Assembly (NCBI RefSeq): GCF_947077775.1
Contig: NZ_CAMTTE010000001.1
Span: 2,880,501-2,944,500 of the forward strand
Reading direction: 5' to 3'
Length of the DNA stretch: 64,000 bases
From: Salinibacter pepae
GTDB lineage: Bacteria > Bacteroidota > Rhodothermia > Rhodothermales > Salinibacteraceae
Positions 50,360 through 51,801 of this stretch are shown here, in pieces. Numbering within the stretch: the stretch's first letter is position 1; each line of letters begins with the position of its first letter. Made by a program: the position numbers and the translations under genes. The notes beneath the pieces are model-generated. The model had not been told where the DNA came from. It saw nothing but the letters and a program-made list of their open reading frames with translations, and made no database searches.

Positions 50360-51307
50360 CTACACGTCCAGCTCCTCCAGGTCCGCCGGGTCGCGTTTGA
50401 GGAGGCCCTGCTTCTTGTAGTAGATCATCGTCGTGTCCAGGGTGCCGTGGCGCATGCGCTCCTTCACCTCTTCGAGCGGCATGCCGTCGTTGAGCCAGAG
50501 GAGGGCGGCCGTATGGGTGAGGCTGTGCGGCGTGACCCCCTTGCGCTTGATGCCGGCCTCCTTGAGGTAGCCGTTGATGCGGCTTCGCACCGACCGGGTT
50601 TGGAGCCGCTGTCCCTTCGACCGGTGGCCGTGCGAGACAAACAGCGGATCCTCGGGGTGCACGTCGTCGCGGGTGTCGAGGTACGCCTCCACGGCTTCCA
50701 GCACGGGCGGATCGAGCGGCGCCTCCTGGTCCTTGACCTCGCGCCCCTTGCCCTGCACGCGTAGCACCGGGCCCATGAGGGTGTGCTCCAGGTCCTCCAC
50801 GTCGGCCCGCACGATCTCGATCTCGCTAAGGCCCGCGTAGAGCATGAGCGAGATGATGGCGTGGTCGCGCTTGTCGATCTGGGTCGCGTCGTCCACGACT
50901 GCCTCCAGCTCTTCGATGTCGGACTCCGTGAGCACGGAGCGGGAGTGCGTCTCGGGCCGCCGGTTGCCCTTCACGCCCGTGGCCGGGTTTTCGGTCAGCG
51001 CGCCGATGTCGGTCAGGTACTGGCAGAAGCGCCGTAGGGCTGTCAGGTAGGTGGACACGGAGACCTGGCTCAGGTCGCGGTCCTCCATCAGGTAGCGCTT
51101 ATACTCGCGCACCCCGTCCTCGGTGAACCGGAAGGTGTTCTGCTGGACGAACCACTTCTCAAACGAGTTCAGGGAGCGGCGGTACGTGCCCACCGTCTCG
51201 TCGCTTTTGTCCTCCAGGTAGTCGTCCTGGAAGGCCTGCAGGTGGTCGCGCAATTCCCGGAGGGAGAGCTCCAGCTCCGGGCCGGGTGAGGATGTGTCGT
51301 CGGGCAT
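50360..51307 (-). CDS. Tyrosine-recombinase-fold protein without catalytic arginines
   Basis: A 315-residue XerC/D-like protein: an N-terminal SAM-like core-binding domain (about 20-125) and a catalytic-type domain. Usual catalytic residues are partly present: Lys in VQGKGREV, His261 in PHSLTHT, His287 in RMRHG and Tyr296 in TTMIYYK. Both arginines are lost: GLR has become GLSEIE (Ser161) and HxLRH has become HSLTH (Thr264). Strand exchange is therefore unlikely; it may bind DNA only. ATG 51307 is chosen. No att sites or mobile genes are nearby. Confidence 0.85.
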   Translation of the reverse strand: MPDDTSSPGPELELSLRELRDHLQAFQDDYLEDKSDETVGTYRRSLNSFEKWFVQQNTFRFTEDGVREYKRYLMEDRDLSQVSVSTYLTALRRFCQYLTDIGALTENPATGVKGNRRPETHSRSVLTESDIEELEAVVDDATQIDKRDHAIISLMLYAGLSEIEIVRADVEDLEHTLMGPVLRVQGKGREVKDQEAPLDPPVLEAVEAYLDTRDDVHPEDPLFVSHGHRSKGQRLQTRSVRSRINGYLKEAGIKRKGVTPHSLTHTAALLWLNDGMPLEEVKERMRHGTLDTTMIYYKKQGLLKRDPADLEELDV

Positions 51308-51801
51308 GGGATGGGGCGCAGAGAAAAAGAGGAACCGTCGTCGTGTAATCAACGGCCCACGCTGGACGGTGTCAATAACGGAATCCGACAGGCGCCCTGT
51401 CCTGAGTGGCCGTCCCGTGTCCGACCCTTCTCCCTGGTGGGATCTTCGAAGACCGGCCCCGGCCTCCTGATCCCCAATCTGCCCGTACCGTTCGTCTCGT
51501 CCTTCAATGGCTGCCCACTTTCTTCACCGGACAGGTGGCCCGGTGGGGGCCTTTTCCTCGGCTACCACGGGGGGTACGTGGGATGCCTCTTCCTTGCTGC
51601 GACGCAGCACGACGCGCCTCCCGCATTCAGCACGGCCATGTGGACCGTTGTCGCTCCCCTGACGGGGCTCCCCCTGCTCGGGGCCTCCGCGCGAGGGGGG
51701 TGGGGCGAACGCCACTAGACGGGCCGCCACGCACGAGAATCCTTCGGGCAGTCCCCCCGTTGGCTCCCAAAGACGTTTCGCCCTCGTCAGCCAGTGCCTG
51801 C
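51308..51801. other. Divergent gap before corA
   Basis: 494 bases between the recombinase-like gene and corA. Open frames exist but are low-complexity and resemble no protein family. No promoter box or strong hairpin was recognised. Confidence 0.5.

Follow-up and report, generated by a model that had tools for sequence, protein, structure and literature searches.

A gene of Salinibacter, a salt-loving bacterium, encodes an XerC/XerD-like protein in which both catalytic arginines of the tyrosine recombinases have been replaced, and this loss is shared by its orthologues across the order Rhodothermales. The gene was named xer* and the family XER* in this analysis. Taken as a whole, we consider it reasonably likely that XER* is a domesticated protein that binds or bridges DNA without cutting it and that is probably autoregulated; the binding and autoregulation steps are those that we infer from sequence comparisons.

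The xer* coding sequence lies on the minus strand of the window (the whole stretch of 64,000 nucleotides that was analysed) at positions 50360..51307, from an ATG at 51305-51307 to a TAG at 50360-50362, and encodes 315 amino acids; the plus strand of the same interval is interrupted by internal stops. Its assignment to a catalytically dead Xer-family protein is based on domain matches and on the presence of single-copy orthologues in the order. Pfam returned both parts of the tyrosine recombinase superfamily fold, the SAM-like core-binding domain (SAM_1, PF02899, 4.3e-12) and the Phage_integrase domain (PF00589, 9.4e-22), and residues 33-297 align with E. coli XerD (PDB 1a0p; profile match 2.4e-24). 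The best relatives in the PDB are this XerD structure, archaeal XerA (5hxy and 4a8e) and XerH (5jjv). Scores against the XerC equivalog TIGR02224 (133.6 bits) and the XerD equivalog TIGR02225 (114.5 bits) are far under the curated cut-offs of 335.15 and 329.6, respectively, so that XER* is Xer-like and neither XerC nor XerD. An AlphaFold model computed with 12 sequences was poor (pLDDT 57, pTM 0.41), and a search of Rfam around the gene gave zero matches.

The active site was read from the codons and from one MAFFT alignment including 16 XerD and 12 XerC-like proteins of the same phylum, together with 13 further tyrosine recombinases of the order; the latter belong to two families of Rhodothermales that we call R1 and R2. 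The two columns designated Arg I and Arg II carry Arg in 28/28 XerC/XerD, 7/7 R1 and 6/6 R2, whereas XER* has Ser161 (codon AGC, 50825..50827, minus strand as for all codons below) in the first and Thr264 (ACC, 50516..50518) in the second. The pentad R-K-H-R-H of the active enzymes is therefore without its arginines, as the original prediction had proposed, and both replacements are clear sense codons in a healthy frame. It had also been proposed that the fold and the rest of the active site are kept, and this is borne out by the Pfam and PDB matches and by the codons and alignment of Lys187 at the catalytic Lys position (AAG, 50747..50749), His261 as first His of the HxxR motif (CAC, 50525..50527), His287 as second His (CAC, 50447..50449) and Tyr296 at the nucleophile position (TAC, 50420..50422). 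A third canonical arginine, in the N-terminal domain and present in 100% of XerC/XerD, is Thr86 in XER* and is replaced in the family too. Misalignment as the origin of the missing arginines was ruled out by the 41 controls, which carry both of them in the same alignment and fix the columns; no arginines were found displaced to other positions of the alignment.

The presence of Lys, both His and, mostly, Tyr in the main clade of the family is what would be expected if XER* still cleaved DNA through a re-wired active site, using another arginine or Lys and His only. The integrase of CTnDOT (IntDOT) offers a precedent, as it also has Ser in the place of Arg I; IntDOT keeps Arg II. Its substitute arginine stands, we assume, two residues before the catalytic Lys, which is position 185 of XER*; there XER* has Gln185, a residue that the main clade conserves, and no displaced arginine of this type. 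In IntDOT the downstream Arg functionally replaces the Arg I that was exchanged for Ser (PMC8138268); unlike XER*, IntDOT is an active integrase with a substitute Arg. XER* is also without Arg II. Arg286, beside His287 (MRHG; Gly in XerC/XerD), was considered as a compensating residue and was rejected since Arg also occupies this position in the intact R2 enzymes. Furthermore, the Tyr is replaced in 4/53 main-clade members and in 11/13 members of a sister genome family (f3), and purifying selection persists. To our knowledge, the established biochemistry of the family makes cleavage of DNA without the arginines unexpected. A re-wired active site is therefore very unlikely, and XER* is almost certainly dead as a catalyst.

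A single xer* orthologue per genome was found in 104/114 Rhodothermales genomes (74 of the 77 near-complete ones), the carriers including Salinibacter, Salinivenus and Longimonas. Residues were counted in 66 sequences of the order, made up of 53 distinct sequences of the main clade and 13 of f3, and in 26 sequences from other families of the class and phylum. Main-clade sequences have Ser (46), Ala (3), Gly (3) or Thr (1) in the Arg I column and Thr in the Arg II column (53/53); none of these orthologues has either arginine, and Arg occupies the Arg I column in 0/66 sequences of the order. Conservation in related genomes thus extends to both replacements. Lys187, His261, His265 and His287 are each present in 53/53 main-clade sequences and Tyr296 in 49/53. 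In f3, which has the same gene neighbours, His261 and His287 are found in 0/13 and the Tyr in 2/13 sequences. Among the 26 more distant relatives, 23 are without Arg I and 21 have Arg II.

In a quick tree with a midpoint root, XER* forms a single clade across Bacteroidota, apart from XerC, XerD, R1 and R2 (SH-aLRT 99), and by parsimony the fewest changes are two for Arg I and five for Arg II. Given this single clade and the distribution of the arginines, the simplest account places the loss of Arg I at the foundation of the family, ancestral to all its members, followed by one reversal in a small clade. As reconstructed from the sequences, Arg II is shown to have been lost afterwards, at the root of Rhodothermales or close to it, and the Tyr to have been lost several times within the family. 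Three loci of another Bacteroidota family (L076 to L078, in genomes G373, G185 and G328) have Arg at position 161; one of them, L076, bears the full set of catalytic residues and represents a possible reversal to an active-like site.

The dN/dS values between xer* relatives range from 0.03 to 0.33 and are 0.16-0.18 in f3, where the Tyr and His are also gone, indicating that the protein is constrained although its chemistry is not. That xer* could be a decaying pseudogene or a sequencing artefact has a negligible probability, as sequence, length and position are conserved in about 100 genomes with dN/dS well below 1; this order-wide conservation and the dN/dS values refute a local decay. Judged from the comparison of sequences, the loss of the arginines is ancient and selected.

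The ancestral order of genes in Rhodothermales is prs-rplY-pth-hppA-sucB-xer*-secA-recN and is kept across much of the order, xer* lying 17-350 nt past sucB in most loci that keep sucB there (names of neighbours outside the window were read from translated ORFs). In the window, secA and recN remain downstream of xer*, sucB has been relocated and the upstream side is occupied by a divergent corA-like gene. The kept gene order indicates that xer* is inherited vertically and is not a mobile element; catalytic residues have been lost while the gene was vertically retained under purifying selection. Conservation, low dN/dS and fixed synteny agree with the domestication that had been suggested at the outset, and XER* would constitute a new family within a known kind, the dead domesticated tyrosine recombinases, with a function that is probably DNA binding. 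We found no description of the family in the open-access literature, a coverage outside which most subscription journals lie.

Some of these neighbours belong to translation: rplY and pth in the Rhodothermales cluster, and leuS, which directly follows xer* in some other Bacteroidota. They raise the alternative that the fold has moved to a role without recognition of DNA sequence, for example binding to RNA or the ribosome, or scaffolding of proteins. RaiA is a ribosome-associated translation inhibitor, and a ribosome-related PDB entry (9i5v, chain 14) holds a 401-aa chain named RaiA that matches an XerC-like recombinase over residues 20-279, so that its first ~280 residues are Xer-like; this chain is apparently a fusion of a Xer protein with a hibernation factor. 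However, both arginines are intact in the RaiA-named chain, which is therefore no member of XER*, genes for translation are frequent neighbours in general, and many of the conserved basic residues of XER* map onto DNA-facing helices. We regard a role of this type as distinctly unlikely.

No XerD match at 1e-60 was obtained in any of 113 Rhodothermales genomes, 5/14 control genomes being positive. Class-mates and other Bacteroidota tested, with or without XER*, have a second Xer in addition to a canonical XerD that passes the cut-off. Instead of XerD, the genomes of the order carry R1 (41/113), R2 (64/113) or both; one genome (G023) has XER* and neither of them. R1 or R2 lies 0.467-0.493 of the chromosome away from dnaA in four single-contig genomes with one dnaA (G064, G045, G061 and G041), and, in a further four genomes that contain dnaA twice, 0.468-0.499 from one of the copies. 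They are thus opposite dnaA in 8/8 genomes placed, one dnaA being chosen where there are two (loci L223-L230; L215 and L041 at G000 C1:101793-104393). XER* is found 0.13-0.29 of the chromosome from dnaA and so off the terminus. These positions make R1 and R2 the likely enzymes of dimer resolution and count against XER* performing it. R1 and R2 are candidate replacement Xer/dif systems tied to the terminus, like XerS/difSL; xer* itself, being unlinked to the terminus, does not form a single-recombinase dif module of this type.

Two side observations were made in Salinibacter. Firstly, the R2 that stands beside an intact R1 is degenerate, both arginines being kept while the Tyr and the HxxR His are gone (G000 C1:103530-104393, L041); as read from its sequence, this is a second, different inactivation of a recombinase in the same genome. 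Secondly, genomes of the Salinibacter type have two dnaA-like genes (G000 C1:3580754 and C1:1900357), and the geometry of the terminus points to the second of them (1,900,357) as the one at the origin.

The presence of other Xer proteins beside XER* is compatible with a non-catalytic partner that would occupy one arm of a dif-like site and activate or restrain XerC/XerD in other Bacteroidota, or R1/R2 in Rhodothermales. In the other Bacteroidota tested, XER* is accompanied by a canonical XerD and a second Xer; in many Rhodothermales its companion is R1 or R2. R2 (319 aa, intact) is its nearest active relative by position in the tree, by a common 4-aa insertion, Arg286 and a TTMxYxxQ motif; R2 differs in having kept both arginines and in its location at the replication terminus. 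Synapses of XerH, and those modelled for XerCD, pair an inactive subunit with one that cleaves (PMC5241119). However, R1 and R2 have a patchy distribution, XER* is present almost throughout the order and occurs in G023 with neither of them, the gene lies away from the terminus where R1/R2 sit, and in f3 the C-terminal region, which would provide the contacts between protomers, is degraded. We consider a partner role unlikely.

The arginine loss shared throughout the order suggests that XER* has been retained for binding DNA and not for cutting it. XerH inserts its N-terminal helices and helix alpha-K (285-299) into the major groove (PMC5241119). Using the offset of the catalytic residues, alpha-K was mapped onto XER* residues 237-251 (50555..50599, minus strand), a segment that includes the family-conserved Arg238, Arg241 and Arg243. 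Together with Arg229 and Arg234 in the loop before, these arginines are present in at least 85% of the XER* family and mostly absent from XerC/XerD, and the helix equivalent to alpha-K contains a mean of 3.2 Arg in the XER* family versus 1.6 in XerC/XerD. Conserved basic positions in DNA-facing segments comprise R229, R234, R238, R241, R243, R284 and R286, and the DNA-facing stretch S83-A90 of the N-terminal domain is invariant in the main clade. Mutants of Cre carrying R173A or R292A occupy and synapse their sites without recombination (PMC4381057); they correspond singly to the two losses that XER* has together. By analogy with these mutants and from the conserved residues, a DNA-binding role of XER* is quite probable. 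The protein would form a C-shaped clamp that closes on a specific site in DNA, with no cleavage, and might bridge two sites, as a regulator or an architectural protein. Against such a clamp, the conservation of Lys187 and of the three His in every main-clade sequence, and of the Tyr in nearly all, is more than a pure DNA clamp seems to need.

The first target of the clamp would most likely be CCGTTATTGAC, which overlaps the probable -35 box of the xer* promoter and through which XER* would repress its own gene. This sequence was found by comparing upstream regions that are otherwise unalignable, mostly 60-185 bp before the start codon. In the window it forms the core of the conserved element TTCCGTTATTGACACCGTC (51365..51383, minus strand), a candidate operator of which the 64,000 nt contain no second copy. 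A TTGACA inside the element (51370..51375) is the probable -35 box, and a TTGATT 17 nt further (51347..51352), weakly matching the consensus, is at the probable -10 position; because this -10 is weak, a sigma-70 scan gave no call for the promoter. The 260 bp upstream of the gene contain an exact match to the 9-mer CCGTTATTG in 25/34 non-redundant orthologues (<85% mutual identity), compared with a mean of 0.06 and a maximum of 1 in mononucleotide shuffles, the motif having been derived from the same data. Immediately 5' of the -35 box, the bases show roughly the same conservation as the box, a pattern suggestive of a bound protein.

The element was missing in f3, where the XER* protein persists. 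A variant, CCGTTATTGCAA, occurs at several places in genomes of another family (f14) and in one other genome (L118, L121 and L141), so that the element could be a type of promoter or a small dispersed repeat instead of a private operator. On account of both observations, we hold autoregulation of xer* through CCGTTATTGAC as a tentative proposal. A multi-gene regulon was set aside because CCGTTATTGAC occurs once only in its own genome, a weak argument since chance alone would place this 11-mer about once in a genome. The likeness of the element to half a Xer site (a TTAT core after a 6-bp spacer) was also considered and a dif site was rejected, since xer* lies well away from the terminus and the element has a weak left arm. 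A similar sequence, TTCTGTTATTG, precedes xer*-leuS in other Bacteroidota (L091, L097 and L138). A still more general reading, which we find somewhat doubtful, is that XER* proteins are Bacteroidota-wide Xer-derived DNA-binding regulators that read a Xer-like half-site in their own promoter and that have outlived XerC/XerD in Rhodothermales.

XER* has in common with the chromosome-dimer recombinases XerC, XerD, XerA and XerH the full-length two-domain fold, the Lys, the two His and the Tyr, and differs from them in the replacement of both arginines, the 4-aa insertion, the Arg-rich helix before HxxR and its position off the terminus. The streptococcal XerD-like protein encoded beside scpAB is presumably a Xer paralogue annotated without catalytic residues and not acting at dif; it differs from XER* in belonging to Firmicutes and in its neighbourhood. 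We found nothing in the literature on the residues of that protein, and a pneumococcal study (PMC6620402) is silent on them. Crypton-derived DUF3504 proteins (KCTD1, ZMYM2-4, QRICH1) contain a recombinase domain without catalytic residues that the host has kept under constraint (PMC3212892); in contrast to XER*, these are eukaryotic, multidomain proteins, and they have lost the Tyr and the second Arg.

XER* is a natural and ancient counterpart of the Arg-minus mutants of Cre and Flp made in the laboratory, and extant genomes still display the steps of its losses, first of Arg I, next of Arg II and after that of Tyr and His. The family also draws attention to a gap, as none of the 113 genomes searched in this order has a canonical XerD, and gives a tractable test of the roles of Xer proteins besides cutting. 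If the proposed reading is true, a recombinase would have turned into a transcription factor or DNA-bridging protein, with dimer resolution taken over by other recombinases.
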